Below, one piece after another: positions 1 through 29,785 of a stretch of DNA of 39,728 nucleotides (the stretch's first letter is position 1; each line of letters starts with the position of its first letter). The position numbers and the translations under genes are program-made. Source of the DNA: a virus; IMG/VR virus record IMGVR_UViG_3300004231_000045, positions 1 through 39,728 of that record. One strand, given 5' to 3'. Under the pieces are notes generated by a model, which had not been told where the DNA came from, did not search any database, and saw only the letters and a program-made list of their open reading frames with translations.

Positions 1-675
1 ATGCTTGAAAGTCCTAAACTCACCGCACGGCAACAACAGATTCTGGACCTGATCCAAAGCGCCATCGCGCGCACCGGCGCCCCCCCCACCCGCGCCGAAA
101 TTGCCAACGAGCTCGGCTTCAAGTCCGCCAACGCTGCCGAAGAACACCTGCAGGCCTTGGCCCGCAAGGGCGTCATCGAGCTGGTCAGTGGCACCTCCCG
201 CGGCATCCGCCTCAAGAGTGACACACTACGCTCCATCCACGAATCCCGCATCAAGCAATTCTCGCTGCCGCTGCCCGGCTTGGCGCAGTTGGCGCTTCCG
301 CTGGTGGGCCGTGTGGCCGCAGGCTCGCCCATTCTCGCGCAGGAACACGTGGACCAGACCTACTACGTGGAAAACAGCCTGTTCCAGCGCCAGCCCGACT
401 ACCTGTTGAAGGTGCGCGGCATGTCCATGCGCGATGCCGGCATCATGGATGGAGACCTGCTGGCCGTGCAAGCCACCAAGGACGCCAAGAACGGCCAGAT
501 CATCGTCGCCCGACTCGGGGACGAGGTCACCGTCAAGCGCTTCCGCCGCAACAAGAACCTCATCGAATTGCACCCCGAGAACCCGGACTACCAAACCATC
601 GTGGTCGAGCCCGGCGAGCCCTTTGAAATCGAGGGACTGGCGGTCGGACTGATCCGCAACACCATGCTCATGTAA
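1..675 (+). CDS. lexA: LexA repressor, SOS regulator
   Basis: This 224-residue protein has the full LexA layout. A winged helix-turn-helix DNA-binding domain fills about residues 1-70 and an S24 self-cleavage domain fills about 95-224. The Ala107-Gly108 cleavage bond (GRVAAGSP), the nucleophile Ser142 (RGMSMRD) and the general base Lys179 (EVTVKRF) are all present, so it should be active. LexA represses SOS genes and cleaves itself when RecA is activated by DNA damage. The window begins at the ATG, so its promoter and SOS box cannot be seen. It is a host gene and marks chromosomal DNA left of the prophage. Confidence 0.97.
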
Positions 676-9800: not shown

Positions 9801-11415
9801 TGCCGTCCAGGGCCGTGCGGGGGCCTTCGCCGGCATACTTTTCACGGATGCCTGCGATGGTGGCGTTGAGGAGTTTGGTGTTGTCTGCGTTCTGTGGTGC
9901 GTCTTTGGCGGCTTCGCGGGCGGCGGCGATCTCCTTGACCATGCGTACCTCGTTGCTGAGGTACTGGTCGGACATCTTGCGCAGCTTGGCCTGGGCATCC
10001 ATCTGGTCAGCCGCAATCTTTTGGTAGGCGGCGGATTGGGCCTCATAGGCGGCACCCTTGCCCAGCAGGGCGACTTCTTGCTGGCGAGCAGCGATGACGC
10101 GCTCGAGGCGGGTGATATTGGCATCGGCGTTGTCTTTGGAGGTGTCGCGCAGGCCGCCGTTGGCGGATTTGTCGCGGGCGCGGTCGAGCGCGGCCTGGGC
10201 GGCCTCCAGGGCCTTGTTGGCACCGGCCACCGGATCACTGGGGCGGCCGATGTTGAGCATGGAGTCCCATGCGCCCTTGGCCTCTTTGGCAATGGCCGCC
10301 CAGGCCTTTTCCACATAGCCCAGGTTGGCCTGGAGCTGGGGGATGCGCTGCTCCATGACGGAGGCGTAGGTGTTCTGGGCGAGCGCGGCGGCCTCGGTGG
10401 TCTTGCCTTGCTCGGCCAGGGCGCGGATCTGCTCATAGACCGACGCGGTGAGGAAGTGCGTGGATTCGTTGAGCTTGAGGCTGGCTTCCACGGGGGACTT
10501 GCCCAGCTCTTCAAACTGCTTGACGGTGGCGCCAACGGACGCGCCGGTAACGCTTTGCAACTGGGCGGCAATGCCGGCGATACGCTCGAAGCTGCCAGAG
10601 GCAATGTTGTTGCTTCCCGCCAAGGTGGCCAGGGCCTCTGCAGCGGCGCCCTGCGTGATTTTGCTGCTGGCAGAGACGCTGGCGGCCATGGCAGCGAGCT
10701 GCGTGGCGGTGACGCCGGAAGCGTTTCCAGTCTCGATCAGGGCCTGACGGTAGGCCTGTGATTCCTTTTGCCCCTGCGCAAAGGCAAGAACGACTACGCC
10801 TGCCGCGGCGGCGGTGATGGTGAACGGGTTGATCAGGCCGAGCACGTAAGAGCCCATGGCGCGTGCAGCATTGCCGGCGCCGCCAAACATATCCTTGAGC
10901 TGACCGCCCTGTTGCAGCAGCACGGTCATAGGCTTTTGGCCGCCCTGCAGGCTGGTAACGATGTCGGTGAACTGGGCCGGAACCTGGCGCATGGCGGCGG
11001 CGTTCTGGGCGGCGGAGACGCCGATTTTGTCGAGCGAGCTAGTGCCAGCGGTTTGGGCGCGCAGGGCCAGGGACTCGGTCTCGCGCAACTTTTGCAGCAT
11101 GGGCTCGAACTTGGTGGGGTCGAGTCCCTTGTCGGCGATGTTGAATTCGAACCGCTGTGAGGCCGTCTTGCCGAGCAGTTCCAGCTCGGTGGTGGACTTT
11201 TTGATGGCCTGGGACATGCGGGCCTCGGCCCGGGTGAATTTCTCGGCCGATTGGCCGGCGCCGTCGCCAATTTTGTCGACAGCCTGCCCGGCCAGACCGG
11301 CTGAGCTGGCCACTTCATTGGCCATGCCCTGGGCGGCTTCGCCCACCCGCGTGAAGGCGGCTTCTGCCTTCTCGGAGGTGACGACTACTTCGCCAGTGAT
11401 GCTGAGATCGGACAT
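6895..11415 (-). CDS. Tail length tape measure protein
   Basis: At 1506 residues this is by far the longest phage protein, as expected for the ruler that sets siphovirus tail length. The N-terminal part contains the typical tape measure segment (about 145-180, VPAQFTDIVTSLQGGQ) and a membrane-like segment at about 188-212. The middle is long charged helix with heptads. A glycine/serine-rich linker near the C-terminus precedes a final globular part. It lies after the tail chaperones, as in lambda-like phages. Confidence 0.96.
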   Translation of the reverse strand: MSDLSITGEVVVTSEKAEAAFTRVGEAAQGMANEVASSAGLAGQAVDKIGDGAGQSAEKFTRAEARMSQAIKKSTTELELLGKTASQRFEFNIADKGLDPTKFEPMLQKLRETESLALRAQTAGTSSLDKIGVSAAQNAAAMRQVPAQFTDIVTSLQGGQKPMTVLLQQGGQLKDMFGGAGNAARAMGSYVLGLINPFTITAAAAGVVVLAFAQGQKESQAYRQALIETGNASGVTATQLAAMAASVSASSKITQGAAAEALATLAGSNNIASGSFERIAGIAAQLQSVTGASVGATVKQFEELGKSPVEASLKLNESTHFLTASVYEQIRALAEQGKTTEAAALAQNTYASVMEQRIPQLQANLGYVEKAWAAIAKEAKGAWDSMLNIGRPSDPVAGANKALEAAQAALDRARDKSANGGLRDTSKDNADANITRLERVIAARQQEVALLGKGAAYEAQSAAYQKIAADQMDAQAKLRKMSDQYLSNEVRMVKEIAAAREAAKDAPQNADNTKLLNATIAGIREKYAGEGPRTALDGIIRQLEEQQMVITQAEQRASKTLAAQHSAQLVDDADFYAKKRDMALQSVGEQQAIINAEIAAVARSGIKSGDKTKEIERYNGDLAKLRQQDLGIESEYSDSLYAINQKNLKIQDDYISALGKAGAADAKRLDGAIASQREHNAEIGLTKEQIEAYKRTVEDAGTAELQVQEQAISALLERNQALVDYGDTLGLIGGKAKEIYEEERKKLQYQIAKRKQLAALYSDGSAREASSAASKASTEEWKRGWAETDRIAREAFTSWAEGGTSAAEAVGKALKKALLSAIYEATFKPLVLQIYTSVVGSNPGASGAGGIMSTLGSMASGKSDETGIAGTILASAGLFGKGFSAGLGAVFGESGTLGALSAGTTAIGAGNLAGGFGTLAGAAAPWIAGAMALKGLTDYSVKSDGSALVANIGSKGLSGQVARRDDFTQSSSGIFSGGTTHNSDWSRAGDAVDSYIDTVTKSASNSVRLYAAALGLPVDAIDGFSKQIEASIAGLNPEQQKAAIDKAVSGFLDEMVSSAYGTPLAGLSKSGETSSQTLQRLAVDLSTVNSGLQQLGMAVLPIGLDSAKTAAGLTDAFGGLDKMQSAVGSYYEKFYSDSERAAQGFASLQAQFDALGVSIPTNREGFRQLVASIDISTESGQRMAAAVLGLAPAFDTAASAAQAAAAKMASVIADYASSGEVRAFQVDQIQRALADSGVVLTSDQIANATRSDARALYEQLVASGNSSGAAAVLDQAKAFAAITQPTQSAVGGSSGGGGGGGGSSASDAAAQSINQAWQSITDGIWDEVKRIRNLLAGTGPEAYAAAQAKFAITTAQARAGDQDSAKSLPEVSRILQELAQQNAQSSVELRVMQAKSAASLTETASILALKFGLTVPKFSAGTNYTQEGLAYLHEGEAVVPRAYNPAAGANLGGGSDLINAVRSLSSRLDVIEANTRAGALHAAVTARVLKRVTPGGDAIETRTAAA

Positions 11416-11430
11416 GGATCACCCACAATG

Positions 11431-11455
11431 AAAAGGGCCCGCCAATGGCGAGCCC
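11431..11455 (-). terminator. Terminator-like hairpin just before the tape measure start
   Basis: Read leftward, GGGCTCGCC (11455-11447) pairs with GGCGGGCCC (11443-11435) with one mismatch, followed by TTTT (11434-11431). The T run ends 16 nt before the tape measure ATG. Confidence 0.65.
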
Positions 11456-11495
11456 GGTTAAAACAAATGAGGCCGCCAGGGGGCGGCGGTGGTGG

Positions 11496-11762
11496 TTAGG
11501 AGCGGTCGTCGCTGAATTTCTGAAGGGCAGCGCCTTCCATGACCTGGATGTCGTCGAGTAGCGCATCCCACTCTTGCGCCGACCCGGCCTCGCGGTCGAT
11601 CAGCGGGTAGACGGCTTCGTATCGCAGGCCAACACGGCCACCGAACCCGACGTTCCACTGGGTCTCGACTCGCGCGAAGATTCGGAATGGGCGCCAGCAG
11701 TCGGGCCAGGCTTCGAAGTCATCGTCCTCGAAGTCTTCAGGCTCATAGCCCGATGCCCGCAT
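11496..11762 (-). CDS. Tail assembly chaperone extension (DUF1799-like, gpT equivalent)
   Basis: The stand-alone frame from the ATG at 11762 is 88 residues, with an acidic start (EPEDFEDDDFEAWPDCW) and the DUF1799-like core (ETQWNVGFGGRVGLRYEAV). The same frame is open without a stop back to the slippery site at 11813-11819. It is therefore most likely made as the C-terminal part of a -1 frameshift fusion with the upstream chaperone, like lambda gpGT, rather than from its own start. Chaperones of this type coat the tape measure protein during tail assembly. Confidence 0.8.
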   Translation of the reverse strand: MRASGYEPEDFEDDDFEAWPDCWRPFRIFARVETQWNVGFGGRVGLRYEAVYPLIDREAGSAQEWDALLDDIQVMEGAALQKFSDDRS

Positions 11763-11806
11763 TTCTTGCAGTGAGGGTGGGCGGTCGTAAAAGGCTTGCG
11801 CCGCCC

Positions 11807-12232
11807 CTACCAGTTTCCCCGGCGGCCCTGGTCGATAGCCTGGCGGTAGTCGTCCATGAGGGCATGGAAGCCGGCGGGCTCTTCATCGCCCAGCTTGATG
11901 ATGTTGGCCCGGGTGAACTCGAAGTCGAGGTTCCAGCCTTTGGCGATCTTGAGGATGTAGTCGGCATTGGCTTCAATGCCCTGTGCGGTGTGCTTTTCCA
12001 GGCTGAAAACTGGTACCGGCTGGTCGGCTGCAGGACCATCAGCAGGTTTGCTTGCAAGGGCGTCTTGCTTCTCCTTGGCGTCGGCGTTCATGCTGTCGAC
12101 GAGGGCACCGAACTCGGTACGGGTGCGGTAGACGTAATCGACTTCAATGGCACCTTTGGTGCCGTCGAGCATGGTGAATTCAACGGTTTTCTTGAACGAT
12201 TCGGGGCGTTTGCCCAGGACGACTTTTGCCAT
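11807..12232 (-). CDS. Tail assembly chaperone (gpG equivalent)
   Basis: This 141-residue protein starts at the ATG at 12232; longer upstream extensions have no good start. It is charged and helical in its second half (YILKIAKGWNLDFEFTRAN). Its position between tail tube and tape measure, and the frameshift into the next frame at its last codons, match lambda G. The short form ends four codons after the slip region at TAG 11809-11807. Confidence 0.85.
   Translation of the reverse strand: MAKVVLGKRPESFKKTVEFTMLDGTKGAIEVDYVYRTRTEFGALVDSMNADAKEKQDALASKPADGPAADQPVPVFSLEKHTAQGIEANADYILKIAKGWNLDFEFTRANIIKLGDEEPAGFHALMDDYRQAIDQGRRGNW
11813..11819 (-). promoter_or_regulatory. Programmed -1 frameshift slippery heptamer GGGAAAC
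   Basis: Leftward, the chaperone frame reads CGG GGA AAC TGG TAG. The heptamer G GGA AAC is a canonical X XXY YYZ slip site in the correct phase. After a -1 slip, reading continues CTG GTA GGG GCG and stays open into the DUF1799-like frame at ATG 11762. This yields a fusion of about 245 residues. Confidence 0.85.
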
Positions 12233-17432: not shown

Positions 17433-18656
17433 TCAAGGGGTTGAATTGGGGTTGGCTGGCCGGTTGAGAAGCGGCGGGAGTTTGGCGGCATCACCGCCCA
17501 TTGGGTCCACGTCTTCAAGGGCACGAATTTCGTCCTGTGTGTGCCAGGCGGGTGACCCGCCAGAGCCCAGGGCCTTGGCGTAGTACTCGGCGCGGTCTTT
17601 GGCGGATGCGCGCATCAGGCCATTGGCAAATGATTTGAAGTAGTAGCCTTTCCGGCGCTCTTCGTCAGTCAGAAGATTGATGTCAGCAGATCCCTGGATT
17701 CGCTCGAACCAGGGGTTGAGGCCCAGCACTTTATGGGCATCGAACATGGATTCGGCACTGGCGTAGGTGCTTGCCTTGCTGCCGCTGTAGCCGATAACGA
17801 TGGGGAGGAGGCCGAAGAAGCGGCAGACTTCTTCGACCTGCAGGTCGCGGGTTTCCTTGTGCTGAGCATCCACACCGGACATGGTCTGAGACAGCCATTT
17901 GGCGCCGCTATCAAGAACCAATGGGGAGCCTGTGTTTTGAGCGCTGGCTTCCTCTTTGATCCATTTAGATAGCTTTTTCTGCTGCTCGTCGCTCAGGGTT
18001 CTTTCTACCGAATACACGCCACTGGGGCGCACGCCGTTGGTATGCAGGGCGGCGTGGCTTTGCTCCAGCGCGATGGATAGGCCCAGGGCCTCGCGGGCGA
18101 TGTTGAGGGTGTCGAGGCCCATAACGCCGTCCCACGATGGGCCGCGCACGTGCCAAATCATGTCTTGCGGGAATTCTTTGATGCTGCCATCTTTTCCGAT
18201 GACTCGGTATGCAATCGACCAGTCGTCGTTTTGCACGGCTTTGCAGCGGCCAGGGTCAAGGATGATCAGTTCAGCCAGTTTTCCGCGGTACATGTTCTTG
18301 AACACATAGGCGTTTCCCATGCAGGCGTGCATGGAAAGCTGTTCGCGAAACTCGAAAGCGGTCTGCCAGCCGTTTGGTTTGGCTGTAATCACGTCGTAAA
18401 GCGGGTGCTCGCGGGCGACGCGCTTGCGCTGCAGGCCAGCCTGCTCGTAATCCTGCATGAGCTTGAACGGGACCTGGGCGAAGCCTTGAGTGGAGATGGC
18501 GCGGATGCAAGCAAACGCAGCAGACACCCGAAGCGCCGATTGGAGTGTGACGGATGGCCCGGCCTTTGACTTTGAACCGTTGGCCAGTAGTTCCAGCCAG
18601 CGTTCGTAAACGCTATTGCCGGACTTTGCCTCGTAGGCGCGCGCAAGGAATCCCAT
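17433..18656 (-). CDS. Portal protein
   Basis: The protein is 407 residues from the ATG at 18656, which overlaps the stop of the upstream gene (TAATG). It contains typical HK97-like portal segments (ASAAFACIRAISTQGFAQ-like region near residue 45 and VCRFFGLLPIVIGYSGS in the middle). Portals form the dodecameric ring through which DNA enters the head. Gene order terL-small membrane gene-portal-protease-capsid is standard. Confidence 0.94.
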   Translation of the reverse strand: MGFLARAYEAKSGNSVYERWLELLANGSKSKAGPSVTLQSALRVSAAFACIRAISTQGFAQVPFKLMQDYEQAGLQRKRVAREHPLYDVITAKPNGWQTAFEFREQLSMHACMGNAYVFKNMYRGKLAELIILDPGRCKAVQNDDWSIAYRVIGKDGSIKEFPQDMIWHVRGPSWDGVMGLDTLNIAREALGLSIALEQSHAALHTNGVRPSGVYSVERTLSDEQQKKLSKWIKEEASAQNTGSPLVLDSGAKWLSQTMSGVDAQHKETRDLQVEEVCRFFGLLPIVIGYSGSKASTYASAESMFDAHKVLGLNPWFERIQGSADINLLTDEERRKGYYFKSFANGLMRASAKDRAEYYAKALGSGGSPAWHTQDEIRALEDVDPMGGDAAKLPPLLNRPANPNSTP

Positions 18657-18844
18657 TACTTGCCGCCCCGGGCCAACACCAGACCAGCATGGATGGACAT
18701 TACCCCGCCGACAATCCACCCGGCGGGCGGGTACACCATGCCGGCACCAGCGGAGACGGACACTGCACCACAGACCATGAGAACATCAGGAAGCAAGGAC
18801 TCCGCTGCAGTGCGCAGAGCCTGCAGATTGGTTTTGATTTTCAT
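18656..18844 (-). CDS. Small membrane protein between terL and portal
   Basis: This 62-residue protein from the ATG at 18844 has two hydrophobic segments (about 20-35 and 38-55). An in-frame TTG at 18859 is an alternative start. Small membrane proteins are found at this spot in related phages, with no known role. Confidence 0.65.
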   Translation of the reverse strand: MKIKTNLQALRTAAESLLPDVLMVCGAVSVSAGAGMVYPPAGWIVGGVMSIHAGLVLARGGK

Positions 18845-18849
18845 GTGCT

Positions 18850-20550
18850 CTATTCCCAAAATGATTTTTCTTCGACTTCCACACCAGCCAGGGCTCGGCC
18901 GAAGGCCATCAACATGGCCATGGGGGCGTCGATCTTGTTTTCTTCACGCTCTTTTGTCGGGGACTTGAGTTCGTTGTATTTGGATGTGACAACCACCAGG
19001 TTGCTCATCATCCAGTTCATCAGCGGGTTGTTGTCGTGCACCAGTTTTCCGCTTAGCACCAAGGCCTGCACTTGCAGCAGCGGCTGGGTGTAGAAGGTGG
19101 AACGCTGCGTGATCTCGACCATCGGCAAGCCCTTGTCCAGCAAGGTGCGAGCAAAGTAGCCTGCCAGTGCGGGGTCAAAGGCACTTTCACGAAGATCGTG
19201 CATGTTGCGATCTTTCAATAGGTCGCTTCCAACCATATCGAAGTCGGTCTGGTTGCCTGGACAGACCTGCACGTATCCTTCTTCGATCCAGCCCGGTAAC
19301 TGCGCAATCTTGCTCTCAGCCGCTGCCTGCGCGTTGTAGTACACACGTGTGAACACGTGCCACTTGCCATCTCTCTCGATCACTTTGACTTTGGCAGCGA
19401 AGTCATGCTTCTCGGCAAGATCCATCCCGGTGATCGCTTCGCATCCCTCGAAGTCTTCTTCGCGCAGCGTGGCGTCACCGCACTTGTTCCAAGCCTCCAT
19501 GTCCATCCAGGCGACGCCGGCATTGCTCCACACGTTCAAGTGCTTCGTGAGGAAGTTGCCGCGCGCCGATGGGGTGGCAATGGCCTTGGTACAGGTCGCA
19601 ATGAGCTTGTCGGTCTTGGCGCTGATCCCTATATTGGGGTTGGCCTTGCGCCAGATATGCTGGTCCTTCCAGTCGTCACCCTGGTCAATGGTGTAGATCA
19701 CTCCAAACCATGTCTCGTCAACGTGGGAGCATTGTAGTACCTTGATCGTATAGCCACGCAGCTCGTAGCCGATGCCGCCGGTATCCTTGCCAGCCGTGGT
19801 GATGGAACTGATCAGCGGCTGGCTTCGTGCGCCATCGGCCGACTCGATAACATCCCAGAGGTCGCGCTTCTTGTGGGCGTGGACCTCGTCCACTATGCCG
19901 CCATGGACGTTCAGGCCATCCTGCGTGGATGCCTCGGCGTTCATGATCTTGAAGCTGCTGGCCGTACTGGCGCACGTAATGTCGTAGCGGCCAACCGTTA
20001 CATCAAAGCGCGCCCGGAATTCACTGTCGCGCAGAACCATCTCGCGAGCGGTGTCGAATACTTCCTTAGCCTGCTCTGCCGTGGTGGCCGCGCTGTAGAC
20101 CTGGGCACCGGGTTCATCATCAGCAAAGGCGAGGTAAAGCCCCCGGCCAGCGGCACGCGTGGACTTCGCGTTTTTCCGTGCAATTTCTTCGTACGACCGA
20201 CGAAACCGGCGTAGGCCGGTTGCAGCATGCACCCATCCGAAGAGCTGAAATTCTGCGAAGATCTGCCAGTCTTCCAGCCTGATCTTCGCGTAGGTAATCA
20301 TGCCGTCCACGTAGATCGGCTTGGCCCATTCTCCTTTTATGTGACAGAGCAACTCCTGGAACTGGCAAGCGCGGCCACCCTTGCGTATGTCAATGATGTA
20401 CGGGAAGTCATCATTACCTTGTCGCTTTAAGTCCCTCAGAAGGCGCTTGCATGCAAGTCGCTCAAACTCTCCCGCGACCTCCTGCCCATCGACGACGCGA
20501 CGGGCATAGGCCTTCGCGCGCTCGAAGTATTCGGCGTGTGGTCGAGTCAT
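18850..20550 (-). CDS. terL: Terminase large subunit
   Basis: The 566-residue protein carries the packaging ATPase Walker A-like motif ARKNAKST (124-131) and Walker B IVDE (219-222), then a nuclease domain containing TGMDLAEKHD. It powers DNA translocation and cuts concatemers. It lies 6 bp downstream of terS. The short form of Walker A fits the HK97-like terminase group, usually associated with cos packaging. Confidence 0.96.
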   Translation of the reverse strand: MTRPHAEYFERAKAYARRVVDGQEVAGEFERLACKRLLRDLKRQGNDDFPYIIDIRKGGRACQFQELLCHIKGEWAKPIYVDGMITYAKIRLEDWQIFAEFQLFGWVHAATGLRRFRRSYEEIARKNAKSTRAAGRGLYLAFADDEPGAQVYSAATTAEQAKEVFDTAREMVLRDSEFRARFDVTVGRYDITCASTASSFKIMNAEASTQDGLNVHGGIVDEVHAHKKRDLWDVIESADGARSQPLISSITTAGKDTGGIGYELRGYTIKVLQCSHVDETWFGVIYTIDQGDDWKDQHIWRKANPNIGISAKTDKLIATCTKAIATPSARGNFLTKHLNVWSNAGVAWMDMEAWNKCGDATLREEDFEGCEAITGMDLAEKHDFAAKVKVIERDGKWHVFTRVYYNAQAAAESKIAQLPGWIEEGYVQVCPGNQTDFDMVGSDLLKDRNMHDLRESAFDPALAGYFARTLLDKGLPMVEITQRSTFYTQPLLQVQALVLSGKLVHDNNPLMNWMMSNLVVVTSKYNELKSPTKEREENKIDAPMAMLMAFGRALAGVEVEEKSFWE

Positions 20551-22933: not shown

Positions 22934-25378
22934 TTACAGCGGCAGGTCATCATCCTGGTCCACTGATGGCCCTACGTGGGCCGAATTTGGGGCCACAGGC
23001 GCGCCTTGCGGTGCAGCTATGGGGGTTGCAGGGGGTCGCCTCAAAAAACCGCGCCGCCGCTTTCCATCTGGCTCCCTGTGGCGGTCAAAGCCCAGCGCCT
23101 TCATGGAATTGCTGATGCGCGTATCCATATTCCCGGAACCGTCTATCCGGTCGGCCTTGATCGCCAGGGCGACTGCGTAAAGCTCAGTACTCGTGAAGAA
23201 GGCTCTCTTGGCATTGACAGGCGCCGAGATATCGTCGTGCTTGTCAGGCGTGTCGCGATTGACGTAGGCGTCCAGGATGTTCTCCCACTCGTCCACGCGC
23301 TTGAACGGCTCCTGCTCTGGGAACACCAGCTCGCGTTCCTCCTGTTTGGAGGGCCAATAGGGCTCGCCTTCATTCAACCTGTGCAAAGCTTCGGCAAACA
23401 ATTGCAGCCGCATGCCGGCCAGCACCTCTTCGTTGACCTGGTGCACTTCCAGCGGCCAAAAGCGCCGGTCACCGGTCGCATCCTTCAGAAAGGTATCTGC
23501 ATTGGTGGTCCCCACGTTCACCGAATGCCTTTTGGCCCGGATCAACTGCGACCCATACGGCGGGCGGAACATATCCTCCTGCGCCGACAGGAACTGCTTG
23601 ATCTGCGTCGTCTCCGACTTGTTCAGCGACTCCAGCTCGGCCGACTCGGCGATCCACACGAGCTGCATCGCCATTAGCGAGTCCTTGTCCCCCATCCGGA
23701 TCGCGTTATCGGTGAAGAACGGATAAGCCAGCGCGCGGAAGGCGGTGGACTTTTTCAGGCCCTGCTCACCCTTGATGATCAGCATGTAGTCGAACTTGCA
23801 ACCCGGCTGCAGCGCCCGCTTGACCAAGCCCATGATGAAGCACTTACCGATCAGCCGGGTGTAGGGTCGCTCCTCGATCTCGTACACATCGGTCAGCCAG
23901 TGCTCCAAGCGCTTGACCCCATCCCACTTCTGTTTGTGGATCAGGTCAAGTACCGGGTTGTATTTGGCCGACCTAGCGGCCATCAGCACACCATTGCGCA
24001 GAGTGCTGGTCGCCTTCACGCCGAGGCCAAACACCCGCAGCAGGTATTCCCCCAGCATCAGATCATCTTCCTCATTCCACTCGCCGGGCGGGTGGCCCCA
24101 AGGCGTGGTGCGACTGCGCTCCAGCAAGTGGGTAAAGTCGTTCTGTTTCACCAACAGCTTCAACACCGGATCGAGCTGCAGGCAATACATCACGTTCTCT
24201 CGGCAATCCTGCGGGCGGCCGCGGTGCTTGACCAGGTGCTCCACCACGTCGACATATTCGACTTCATCTGGATCGAATGGGTCATCACCGCCCGATCCGC
24301 CGGCGCCGCTCCCGTGCCCACCGCCCTTCGCGTCTTTGCCCCCCCCAGCGGGAGCGGAATCGTTCGCGCCGATCGGTTTTGGCTTGCGCCGGGTGGGCGG
24401 GGTTAGGGCGATGCCGAGGCGCTGTGCGAGCCAGTGCAGCGCGTCTGTTGGCTTGGTGGCAGGCAGCCACTCCATCACCAGATCAATGGGCGTGCGGCGC
24501 CCCTGCTTGGGGTCGCCCATGTCCGCCAAGCCGAAGTCAACAATGCCCTCGGGCATGATGCTCAGGTCTTCCTGCAGGTCCCGGCCCAGGGCCTTGCTTG
24601 TGACGCGGAAGCCTAGTCCCTTCTGGATGGCCTTGGGGAACAGCGAGGGAACCCAGCCCTGCAGGTGGCCCATGGCCGCATCGTTGATGCGCTTGAAATC
24701 ATCCACACCCGAACCATCCTGCTGCGCGGCCAGTGCCGACGCGGGCGGGGGCTGTTTGGCGGGTGCTGCCGGCTGCGACTTCGCGCGGTGCGCGGCCTTG
24801 GCCTCGTCAATGGTCGCATGCAGCCGCTTGAGCACGCCCTCGTCGATCGGCAACACATCGGCGGGCGTGGCCGGGTAGCGGTTGGCCGTGAAGGTAAAGA
24901 ACTGGCGCTCGCAGAACACCTCCAGCCCGATATCGTTGCTCTTGTTCGTACTGGTCTCGCCCTGCACGATGATGTGAACGCCCTTGCCGCTAGGAGAGTA
25001 TTCGGTGAAGCTGTCGCAAGCCTTGATGATGGCGGCACACCGATCAGTCACCGCCCCGGTGGCCGGGTCAATGGCGCCGTCGATATCGATCCCTATCAAC
25101 CCATCGCCAGGAAGGAAGGCAAAGCCAATGCCCGTCCACCCCCCCCGCTCATACGCACGCCGCACCACGGGCAGCGTTGCCAGTCGCATGCGGTCGCGGT
25201 CATCACCCTGGCCACCGGTGCGCCGGCCGCCTTGCACGTAATAGGGAATCTTGCCCGGCTTGACTTGACCTTCCTTGGGCTCAAACTTCCACAGCAGCCA
25301 CTGCTGCCGTGTCGCCAAATCTGCGGGGATGTCGTCCCAAACCGGAGGCACCACCACCGGGGTTTGTGAATCTGTCAT
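22934..25378 (-). CDS. Primase-helicase (AEP-type primase fused to VapE-like ATPase)
   Basis: The 814-residue protein has an N-terminal archaeo-eukaryotic-type primase/polymerase domain with the acidic motif IGIDIDG (95-101) and SGKGVH (130-135). After a Pro/Ala/Gly linker comes a VapE-like P-loop ATPase with Walker A KGEQGLKKST (536-545). It should prime and unwind phage DNA. It is followed by an iteron-like cluster, and preceded by small early genes, consistent with a replication module. Confidence 0.9.
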   Translation of the reverse strand: MTDSQTPVVVPPVWDDIPADLATRQQWLLWKFEPKEGQVKPGKIPYYVQGGRRTGGQGDDRDRMRLATLPVVRRAYERGGWTGIGFAFLPGDGLIGIDIDGAIDPATGAVTDRCAAIIKACDSFTEYSPSGKGVHIIVQGETSTNKSNDIGLEVFCERQFFTFTANRYPATPADVLPIDEGVLKRLHATIDEAKAAHRAKSQPAAPAKQPPPASALAAQQDGSGVDDFKRINDAAMGHLQGWVPSLFPKAIQKGLGFRVTSKALGRDLQEDLSIMPEGIVDFGLADMGDPKQGRRTPIDLVMEWLPATKPTDALHWLAQRLGIALTPPTRRKPKPIGANDSAPAGGGKDAKGGGHGSGAGGSGGDDPFDPDEVEYVDVVEHLVKHRGRPQDCRENVMYCLQLDPVLKLLVKQNDFTHLLERSRTTPWGHPPGEWNEEDDLMLGEYLLRVFGLGVKATSTLRNGVLMAARSAKYNPVLDLIHKQKWDGVKRLEHWLTDVYEIEERPYTRLIGKCFIMGLVKRALQPGCKFDYMLIIKGEQGLKKSTAFRALAYPFFTDNAIRMGDKDSLMAMQLVWIAESAELESLNKSETTQIKQFLSAQEDMFRPPYGSQLIRAKRHSVNVGTTNADTFLKDATGDRRFWPLEVHQVNEEVLAGMRLQLFAEALHRLNEGEPYWPSKQEERELVFPEQEPFKRVDEWENILDAYVNRDTPDKHDDISAPVNAKRAFFTSTELYAVALAIKADRIDGSGNMDTRISNSMKALGFDRHREPDGKRRRGFLRRPPATPIAAPQGAPVAPNSAHVGPSVDQDDDLPL

Positions 25379-27408: not shown

Positions 27409-27609
27409 ATCGCGCAACTCCACCGCCGCCAGCAACGCACCCGTCTTCATGGTGTCGCCATGCGCAACCACGTCAGCAGGGCAAAACGGGAACGCCACCG
27501 ATGACTGTGCCAGCTCGAATAACCGCGCACATTGGTTTGCCACCAGGACCAGGAGCATCCGCTCCGAATCGTCAGTTGTCGGATCGAGCGTCAGAAATCG
27601 GACAGACAT
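27325..27609 (-). CDS. Small early protein downstream of the Cro-like gene
   Basis: The 94-residue protein starts at the ATG at 27609, overlapping the stop of the Cro-like gene (TGATG), so the two are translationally coupled. It has a helical C-terminus (LLAAVELRDLLCKFGEGRQA). It may be a YdaT- or CII-like partner by position only; I recognise no motif. Its last 84 bp overlap the DUF2513-like gene on the other strand. Confidence 0.55.
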   Translation of the reverse strand: MSVRFLTLDPTTDDSERMLLVLVANQCARLFELAQSSVAFPFCPADVVAHGDTMKTGALLAAVELRDLLCKFGEGRQALRDLGFEPVLEQSKGE

Positions 27610-27881
27610 CACACCACCTGGTTTACTGCGGTTTCAGTAGCTGTCTGCGCACTATTGGCGAGCGACTTGCGCAGATAGTCCCAATCAATATCGGGTCGAA
27701 CATCTTCGGGGCGCACACACCATTCCGATTCCGCCGCTATGCGAAGACACAGTCCTTCTCCAAGCTTCTGCTTGATCGAAACGGCCTTGCGGAGGTATCC
27801 GACAGACGTCTCGCACCGACGGGCAAAGTCTTCCTGGTCGGCCGGTCTGAGGCCATTGAGGTAGTCAGTGAGCTTTTCCAT
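27609..27881 (-). CDS. Cro/YdaS-like regulator
   Basis: The protein is 90 residues from the ATG at 27881. It has the Cro/YdaS helix-turn-helix (LTDYLNGLRPADQEDFARRC, SVGYLRKAVSIKQKLGEG). It diverges from the XRE regulator at 27966 across a set of operator dyads, the standard place for a Cro-like early regulator. The predicted promoter leaves almost no 5' leader, so its mRNA may be leaderless. Confidence 0.8.
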   Translation of the reverse strand: MEKLTDYLNGLRPADQEDFARRCETSVGYLRKAVSIKQKLGEGLCLRIAAESEWCVRPEDVRPDIDWDYLRKSLANSAQTATETAVNQVV

Positions 27882-27887
27882 GAGGTA

Positions 27888-27916
27888 ACTATACCTCAAG
27901 GTATTGCAGCAAACAA
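27888..27916 (-). promoter_or_regulatory. Predicted leftward promoter of the Cro-like gene
   Basis: On the minus strand TTGTTT (27916-27911), a 17-nt spacer and TATAGT (27893-27888) form a good sigma70 promoter. The ATG begins at 27881, only 7 nt beyond the -10 box, so transcription should start at or beside the start codon. Operator dyads overlap both boxes. Confidence 0.65.
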
Positions 27917-27944
27917 TACCCGCAGGCAATTTACCCGAAGGTAA
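27891..27944. promoter_or_regulatory. Three operator dyads of the lysogeny switch
   Basis: Three related 14-bp dyads lie between the diverging regulators: ATACCTCAAGGTAT (27891-27904), ATACCCGCAGGCAA (27916-27929) and TTACCCGAAGGTAA (27931-27944). Centres are 25 and 15 bp apart. A tripartite operator fits a lambda-like repressor/Cro switch. The same first pair, with the same 25-bp spacing, recurs upstream of the DGR operon. Confidence 0.75.
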
Positions 27945-27965
27945 TCAGTTGGAACAATCCACGCA

Positions 27966-28394
27966 ATGCAGAACGACTCTCGATTGCAAGCTCTTCTCGC
28001 TCAGATTCGGCACGACTATTGCCAAGACAATTCAACAGAATTGGCTCGCCGCATCAGCAAAGACGCCTCATACGTGCATCGCCTGTTCTATCCGCGGGAG
28101 AAGAAAGGCGCGAAGGGCATTGGCTTGGAAATCATGAATGCTTGTACTGAAGCGTTCAAACTACCACCGGGGTATTGGGATGGTTTTGGATCTATGCAGG
28201 GAACGATTTCCATGGATCAGCAAGCGCCATACCTCATACAGGCACCAGCAGTGGACGAATGGACCGCCGCCGCCCTTGCAATCATGAAGAGTCTTGACGC
28301 CGTGCAAAAAGCCCAGATGGTGGCAAAAATGCGGGAATACAAACAATTCCTCGGCCCGCCCCGCGACGGCCAAGCTCTACAAGTGGCCGGTTAG
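27966..28394 (+). CDS. XRE-type repressor candidate without a peptidase domain
   Basis: The 142-residue protein has an N-terminal helix-turn-helix (about residues 18-70, NSTELARRISKDASYVHRLF) and a helical C-terminus (ALAIMKSLDAVQKAQMVAKM). It lacks an S24 self-cleavage domain, so induction would need another signal or an antirepressor. It diverges from the Cro-like gene across the operators and is the best candidate for the prophage repressor. Confidence 0.75.
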   Translation: MQNDSRLQALLAQIRHDYCQDNSTELARRISKDASYVHRLFYPREKKGAKGIGLEIMNACTEAFKLPPGYWDGFGSMQGTISMDQQAPYLIQAPAVDEWTAAALAIMKSLDAVQKAQMVAKMREYKQFLGPPRDGQALQVAG

Positions 28395-28508
28395 AAAAAC
28401 GGAGCCGCGGGAAAAACAACATTCACACCCCGCGCAACTAGAACTAGACCTCGTTGGAAAAACGCCGCACCCGCGGCTGGACTCGTGCAACCAACTGAGA
28501 CTTGATCT

Positions 28509-29129
28509 ATGACCACCTCCAATCCGTTCCAGCGGCGCGCCGTCGCCTTCCACAACGAGCAAATGAGCGCTGCCGCCACCCTGCTCGGCATTGCACAAGG
28601 CCTGCTGGCTGACAACCAGTTGCATGACAGCGAAATTCACTTCCTCAACGACTGGCTGTGTGCCAATGAAACCCTATCGTTCGGGTGGCCAGGTAACGTC
28701 ATACTGGCCAAGGTACGCGAAGTGCTGGGGGATGGCATCATCACCGATACCGAGCGCGCCCACCTGGTGCAAGTGCTGGAGCAACTCATTGGCGGCGCCC
28801 TGGATGATGTTGCAGATGCCAGCCGCGTCACCCCAATGGCCCTTGATCAAGTGGAAATGATCGACATCGCGGGCCGATCCTTCTGCCTCACGGGAGAGTT
28901 CGTATTTGGCCCCAAACAGGCCTGCGAAGACGCCATCGAACGCCGTGGAGGAACCATTGCCAGCGGCGTTTCCAAAAAGGTGCACTATGTGGTGGTTGGC
29001 GGCCTGGGAAGCAAAGAATGGAAACATGGCAACTTCGGCACCAAAATCGAACGCGCCATGCAGCTCAAACAGGACGGCGCTGGACTGCTGGTTGTGCATG
29101 AAGACGTGTGGGCCGCATCCCTTGTCTGA
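28509..29129 (+). CDS. TerB-like plus BRCT domain protein
   Basis: The 206-residue protein has an N-terminal helical part resembling TerB-type domains (LLGIAQGLLADNQLHDSEIH, then GDGIITDTERAHLVQVLEQL). A C-terminal BRCT domain follows (about 118-205, DIAGRSFCLTGEFVFGPKQA, ending VVHEDVWAASL), like that of NAD-dependent DNA ligase. It may bind DNA ends or ligase-like complexes. It follows the repressor and is probably expressed in the lysogen. The 114 bp before it hold no clear gene, though one frame stays open through it. Confidence 0.75.
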   Translation: MTTSNPFQRRAVAFHNEQMSAAATLLGIAQGLLADNQLHDSEIHFLNDWLCANETLSFGWPGNVILAKVREVLGDGIITDTERAHLVQVLEQLIGGALDDVADASRVTPMALDQVEMIDIAGRSFCLTGEFVFGPKQACEDAIERRGGTIASGVSKKVHYVVVGGLGSKEWKHGNFGTKIERAMQLKQDGAGLLVVHEDVWAASLV

Positions 29130-29158
29130 CAACATCAAATTCACGAATGGAGGCTACC

Positions 29159-29680
29159 TTGAACCGCACCCTCACTACATTGGGCCTTACCCTACTGATC
29201 GCGAGCAGCGCAACCGCAGCCGACTACCAATCCTGCACCACCATCAAAGCGGCGAAAGACCGCCTGGCGTGCTTTGATCGCTTCGCTGTGGCACAAACTT
29301 CAGAATCAGAAGTTGTTGCGGCTGAGGCCAAGAAGGCCGCAGAACTGAAGGCTGCAACGGAATCAGAAGAGGCCCAACGCCGCGCCTACTTCGTCGCAGA
29401 AGTAGACCGATTCAAAGCCGCCCTTACCGCCAACTTCAAAGACCCAACTTCCGCACAATTCCGAAATGTTGTCGCCTACGGATCTCCCAAGCCGCTGCGC
29501 ATCTCTTACCTGTGTGGCCAGATCAACGGCAAGAACTCCTATGGCGCCTACATTGGGTTTAAGCGCTTCTTCATGATTGGCAAAGAAGTCTCGCAAATTG
29601 AAGATGAAAAGAATGGCTACGTTTTCGACAAAATGTGGCCGACCACTTGCGCCGGTGAAGAGGTCTACCGGCAAGAGTAG
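29159..29680 (+). CDS. Exported accessory protein, likely lysogeny-expressed
   Basis: I prefer the TTG at 29159 because GGAGG (29149-29153) is 5 nt upstream; ATG 29147 is the alternative. The 173-residue protein has a clear signal peptide (LTTLGLTLLIASSATA, cut before ADYQS). The mature part begins with a Cys-containing motif (DRLACFDRFA) and a charged helix, then a globular domain with FKDPTSAQFRNVVAYG. It is probably periplasmic. It lies in the switch region before a terminator, so it may be a lysogenic conversion or exclusion factor. Confidence 0.7.
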   Translation: MNRTLTTLGLTLLIASSATAADYQSCTTIKAAKDRLACFDRFAVAQTSESEVVAAEAKKAAELKAATESEEAQRRAYFVAEVDRFKAALTANFKDPTSAQFRNVVAYGSPKPLRISYLCGQINGKNSYGAYIGFKRFFMIGKEVSQIEDEKNGYVFDKMWPTTCAGEEVYRQE

Positions 29681-29705
29681 ACCAGACCGAGAAACCGAGT
29701 ACATG

Positions 29706-29726
29706 ACCCGCTTCGGCGGGTTTTTT
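29706..29726 (+). terminator. Intrinsic terminator after the switch operon
   Basis: ACCCGC and GCGGGT pair around a TTCG tetraloop (29706-29721), followed by six T (to 29726). It isolates the DGR operon from upstream transcription. Confidence 0.9.
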
Positions 29727-29743
29727 CTGCCCAAAGAAAATAT

Positions 29744-29785
29744 TTACCTGCGGGTATTGCATTAAACAATACCTCTGGGTATATT
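29744..29785 (+). promoter_or_regulatory. Promoter and repressor-type operator of the DGR operon
   Basis: TTGCAT (29757-29762), a 17-nt spacer and TATATT (29780-29785) form a good sigma70 promoter. It is covered by two 14-bp dyads, TTACCTGCGGGTAT (29744-29757) and ATACCTCTGGGTAT (29769-29782), with centres 25 bp apart. The block GGTATTG-CATTAAA-CAATACC (29753-29773) matches the switch block at 27900-27920 at 19 of 21 positions. The first downstream gene encodes the VR1 protein. Confidence 0.8.

Follow-up and report, generated by a model that had tools for sequence, protein, structure and literature searches.

A literature search for a phage repressor operator linked to a DGR found no direct case, and the nearest system is that of the Bacteroides hankyphage, a temperate DGR phage that, like the phage described here, has a CI-like repressor (RepCHP). 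According to the accessible part of its description, VR excess in hankyphage virion DNA is 7.93-fold when the repressor is silenced versus 3.32-fold in the wild type, DGR activity extends to uninduced cultures, and operators on the DGR promoter are not described (PMC12135933). The accessible part of the report on Burkholderia phage Magia mentions a DGR and a repressor and draws no link to an operator (PMC7883833). Variovorax phage VarioGold, in which no DGR is annotated, is described as mitomycin-induced (PMC9658991).

The window analysed here is the whole IMG/VR record IMGVR_UViG_3300004231_000045, 39,728 bp in length. Its divergent cro and cI genes have operators between them, and a second operator pair precedes an operon that carries a DGR (Table 1). 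The second site, at 29744-29785, is with high probability the phage's second repressor-controlled early promoter (P2), similar to lambda OL/PL, with the DGR as its cargo. The window has exactly four copies of the motif TACC-N4-GGTA (27892, 27932, 29745 and 29770), all at the switch or the P2 site, against a mean of 0.095 in dinucleotide shuffles. Tandem dyads with centres 25 bp apart are found at these two places only, and in none of 200 shuffles. The central 21-mers, GGTATTGCAGCAAACAATACC and GGTATTGCATTAAACAATACC, are identical at 19/21 positions, and a 29-nt direct repeat between the two sites has 83% identity. The coordinates and spacing that the initial annotation gave for O1, O2, O1' and O2' are thereby confirmed, as is its match across the central 21-bp block. 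Both of the switch dyads that it named are real, but it overlooked a third operator, O3, which outscores O2. The O3-to-O1 spacing of 39-41 bp is kept in relatives. O1' and O2' are near-equal dyads.

Table 1. Features of the switch, the P2 promoter and the P2 operon, in window coordinates.
Feature	Position	Strand	Sequence	Remark
Primase/helicase gene	22934-25378	-		Downstream of leftward cro
cro, 90-aa Cro/YdaS-type regulator	27609-27881	-		phrog_35 repressor, 4.6e-12
PR (cro promoter) -10	27888-27893	-	TATAGT	Read from sequence
Switch operator O1	27891-27904		ATACCTCAAGGTAT	Sequence dyad
PR -35	27911-27916	-	TTGTTT	17-bp spacer to -10; read from sequence
Switch operator O2	27916-27929		ATACCCGCAGGCAA	Sequence dyad; weakest
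Switch operator O3	27931-27944		TTACCCGAAGGTAA	Sequence dyad
cI-like repressor, 142 aa, HTH domain	27966-28394	+		phrog_5736, 5e-7
Operon operator O1'	29744-29757		TTACCTGCGGGTAT	Centre ~-41.5 of P2
P2 -35	29757-29762	+	TTGCAT	Aligned relatives; TTGACA in many relatives
Operon operator O2'	29769-29782		ATACCTCTGGGTAT	Overlaps P2 spacer and -10
P2 -10	29780-29785	+	TATATT	17-bp spacer; aligned relatives
Leader stem-loop	29786-29823	+		Predicted transcript start; 3' arm contains Shine-Dalgarno of first gene
DGR target 1	29827-30459	+		First gene of P2 operon; VR 30341-30433
Deoxynucleoside monophosphate (dNMP) kinase	31229-31897	+		P2 operon
DGR target 2	31944-32381	+		VR 32272-32362
DGR target 3	32422-32889	+		VR 32792-32883
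Avd accessory protein	32928-33290	+		phrog_3206, 9e-20
DGR reverse transcriptase (RT)	33287-34657	+		phrog_1423, 4e-110
ParB-like gene	34608-36845	+		Downstream in P2 operon; start codon uncertain

The Cro profile (A2) matches PDB 8co2/8c7k, solved prophage Cro structures annotated as 'antirepressor protein Cro', at 2.8e-9, and the CI profile (A1) weakly matches phage Repressor E (PDB 5d50, 0.002). An S24/LexA-type self-cleavage domain was not found in the 142-aa product of 27966; with this short CI the phage is lambda-like in layout but not necessarily in induction. To our knowledge, not every phage of the lambda kind carries such a domain. A longer CI homologue with a C-terminal extension occurs in relative L004. 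The repressors of L016 and L018 have a C-terminal tail in common with the repressor of the window but differ from it in HTH domain, which fits modular exchange of the DNA-binding domain together with its operators. About 7 nt separate the end of the PR -10 from the cro ATG, and the predicted +1 falls about at that ATG, a spacing that may leave the cro mRNA without a leader. The interval between switch dyad and cro start is short in many relatives too, at 10-14 bp.

Each P2 box abuts or overlaps one dyad, and leftward PR has a matching fused geometry. The TTGCAT-17-TATATT promoter that the initial annotation placed over the dyads is present and supported by relatives. It is missing from a simple sigma-70 promoter scan of the window because TTGCAT matches TTGACA at only 3/6 positions, and its likely status as a promoter rests on relatives rather than on that scan. 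Aligned P2 sites of Cro-selected relatives read TTTACC-N4-GGTATTGACA...TTTACC-N4-GGTA-tATT, a consensus in which each of the two dyads is fused to a P2 box, the -35 following the first dyad and the -10 overlapping the second. The spacer is 17 bp in 40/53 aligned sites, 18 bp in 10/53 and 16 bp in 3/53. In 26 of 37 P2 leaders, the Shine-Dalgarno sequence of the first gene pairs with the predicted very start of the transcript; the corresponding number is 12.6 on average (maximum 20) over 200 shuffles, and 18.3 (maximum 26) when arms are swapped between leaders.

The genes from target 1 to RT (29827-34657), among them small genes between target 1 and the dNMP kinase, share a strand, and no gap between them exceeds ~47 bp. 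The TR (33467-33559) lies within the 5' part of the RT reading frame, 3' of the conserved RT N-terminus. Most relatives have the TR at a similar offset inside the RT frame. Each VR differs from the TR by 11 A-mismatches and 0-1 others, which together with RT and Avd identifies a DGR. VRs were found at 30341, 32272 and 32792 only, all in the early operon, and the structural genes lie on the opposite strand. A BPP-1-type DGR with a tail-protein target is ruled out, since no VR lies in a tail or structural gene. The first three nucleotides of the record are the ATG of a LexA-like gene (window 1-675) that encodes an HTH and a UmuD-like domain and may be host DNA flanking a prophage.

A profile of five Cro proteins retrieved 80 viral loci (69 after removal of duplicates) and a CI-domain profile retrieved 9 bacterial loci, counts that, like the E-values, depend on the loci fetched. 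Both searches were operator-free, with two of the five Cro seeds coming from loci first found by operator pattern. A viral scan with the CI protein alone returned no relatives, and an exact double-operator scan of viral contigs returned only three stretches because the linker varies. A second dyad pair, 24-26 bp apart and on the cI side, is present in 52 of the 69 distinct viral loci, mostly 0.6-4 kb from cro and downstream of the switch; it was not found at the chosen stringency in the other 17, some loci ending near the switch.

The DGR RT family, sought in the whole record of each Cro locus, is present in 12/80 records. It was not found in the records of 43 of the 52 loci with a second pair; these records may be fragments, and many RT-less ones with a second pair exceed 35 kb. 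A general RT family, sought in 15 records (12 of them RT-less with a second pair), gave a single match, in a bacterial genome. In RT-less loci, P2 is followed by genes for Erf, exonuclease VIII, an RdgC-like protein, an exonuclease, ParB, dNMP kinase or a methylase. In loci that have both RT and second pair, RT is placed to the cI side of the switch, in most cases at 4-10 kb from cro (in L162, only if the record is circular). The N-terminal domain of target 1 also occurs without a VR domain in RT-less L118 (6524-6805) and in L089 (4642-4941). In L175 (Polaromonas jejuensis), a VR-target-like lectin gene (11300-11870) is first after P2, and a tblastn search found no RT match in that locus. The L008/L102 record (G013) contains two DGR-type RTs (9817-10902, + strand, and 17636-18913, - strand).

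Similar layouts are found under other immunity types. Of the RT-bearing loci, 61 have upstream DNA of sufficient length, and in 17 of these a single dyad family forms two clusters separated by 0.4-5.5 kb, compared with 0-2 loci in eight shuffles of the set, a null that leaves shared ancestry out of account. Three of these 17 de novo hits (L022, L055 and L086) are GC-rich repeats that probably arose by chance. Shared ancestry as the sole explanation is disfavoured by the Cro-selected set and by the variety of operator sequences. The dyads of other immunities include GTAGC, ACCA, CTAGC, TAGCG, AAACA, CACCA, AACAC and more, at switch and P2 alike, and in most of these loci the second cluster has the dyad/-35/dyad/-10 form. 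Operator sequence swaps at both places together with immunity type. This conservation and covariation bear out the earlier proposal that one operator system serves the switch and the DGR operon, and support the assignment of both sets of operators to a single regulator system.

The comparison strongly supports control of P2 by the phage's own CI and Cro. A dimer of the repressor (27966) or of Cro (27609) would bind each TACC-N4-GGTA dyad, at the switch and at P2. In a lysogen, repressor on O1' and O2' would cover the P2 -35 and -10 and silence the rightward operon; upon loss of repression, or in a fresh infection, P2 would fire together with PR, and Cro would later turn down both. The operon thus switched on would supply early lytic genes (dNMP kinase, ParB-like and others) along with three VR targets, Avd and RT with its internal TR. 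Protein binding, repression, continuity of the operon and the effect on VR rewriting are what we infer from this arrangement, and we would expect little diversification in lysogens and more upon infection or induction.

That the operator was instead recruited to the DGR promoter specifically, tying diversification to the lysis-lysogeny decision, would suit an operon that begins directly after the site with a VR target as its first gene. This reading is highly improbable given the 43 relatives that have the second operator promoter and no detected RT; in L008 and L021, moreover, the P2-type promoter precedes other genes and the first VR lies ~1.8 and 5 kb further on, respectively. A DGR-specific operator is largely refuted, since RT-less relatives have the same promoter, and this independence of P2 from the DGR is observed directly. 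The initial annotation had the repressor or Cro controlling diversification. Control of P2 is very probable from the comparison, but the site is not dedicated to the DGR. Nor is its view of the link as rarely visible in DGR loci supported, because most phages of this immunity have the same P2 ahead of an early operon that lacks a DGR. Most likely P2 switches early genes in general, and the retroelement is its cargo. That the dyads are read by a DNA-binding protein other than CI/Cro, from the host or elsewhere, is scarcely credible: they are situated between cro and cI, and at both places a change of immunity type brings a different dyad sequence.

Two further readings leave the operator pair with the phage's regulators and differ in what follows. 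Lambda CI at OR2 activates PRM from about the -41.5 position. O1' is likewise centred at ~-41.5 of the predicted +1 and the -35 is TTGCAT, not TTGACA, so that CI might activate P2 from O1', in which case moderate CI would keep the operon on in a lysogen and only occupancy of O2' would shut it. Such activation is very unlikely: O2', a near-equal dyad, reaches into the -10, TTGACA serves as the P2 -35 in 12/53 relatives' sites, which should need no activator, and the geometry is shared with the leftward cro promoter. An internal promoter might mainly drive TR and RT, making diversification independent of P2 even if P2 is repressor-controlled. Terminator-like stem-loops inside the operon would fit it, as would the insensitivity of a promoter scan that missed P2 itself. 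It is nonetheless unlikely, given the tight packing of the genes on one strand, the position of TR inside the RT reading frame and the lack of any sigma-70-like site at 29827-34657 in that same scan.

If the DGR is cargo of the P2 operon rather than under a regulator of its own, diversification is expected to follow lytic or early expression. From this reading comes a concrete prediction of the timing of such phage DGRs, a hardly studied matter: they should run alongside early lytic expression. The reading further suggests that the DGR targets here are co-expressed with early rather than tail genes, and it counsels caution, since the presence of an operator ahead of a DGR is no proof of DGR-specific control. 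More tentatively, and with confidence somewhat short of even, a large clade of phage DGRs may keep the whole cassette in an early lytic operon under the master lysogeny repressor through repeated immunity changes, with rewriting silent in lysogens and bursting at infection or induction, and with early, non-tail proteins as targets.

As in the lambda immunity region (OR with PR/PRM, OL with PL), cro and cI diverge from an interval that contains three operators, and a further operator cluster sits on another early promoter, the one that reads the other early operon. The locus differs from lambda in its 14-bp TACC-N4-GGTA operators, in the fusion of two dyads to the -35 and -10 of the second promoter, in a CI without the S24-type domain that lambda CI has, and in the DGR in the operon. 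VarioGold (OP296522) resembles the window in its Cro/CI pair, double-operator promoter, and operon with dNMP kinase and ParB, but its operator is of an ATAGC type. Closer in cargo are Magia (MT701587) and Pseudomonas phage LPPA56 (OR188718), in which a Cro/CI switch and a second operator promoter precede a rightward operon with DGR and integrase; their operator sequences, ATAACC and TTAGC, respectively, differ from that of the window. In these three phages the double-operator layout is present at both places. The hankyphage stands apart from the window as a transposable phage whose DGR target is a tail fibre.
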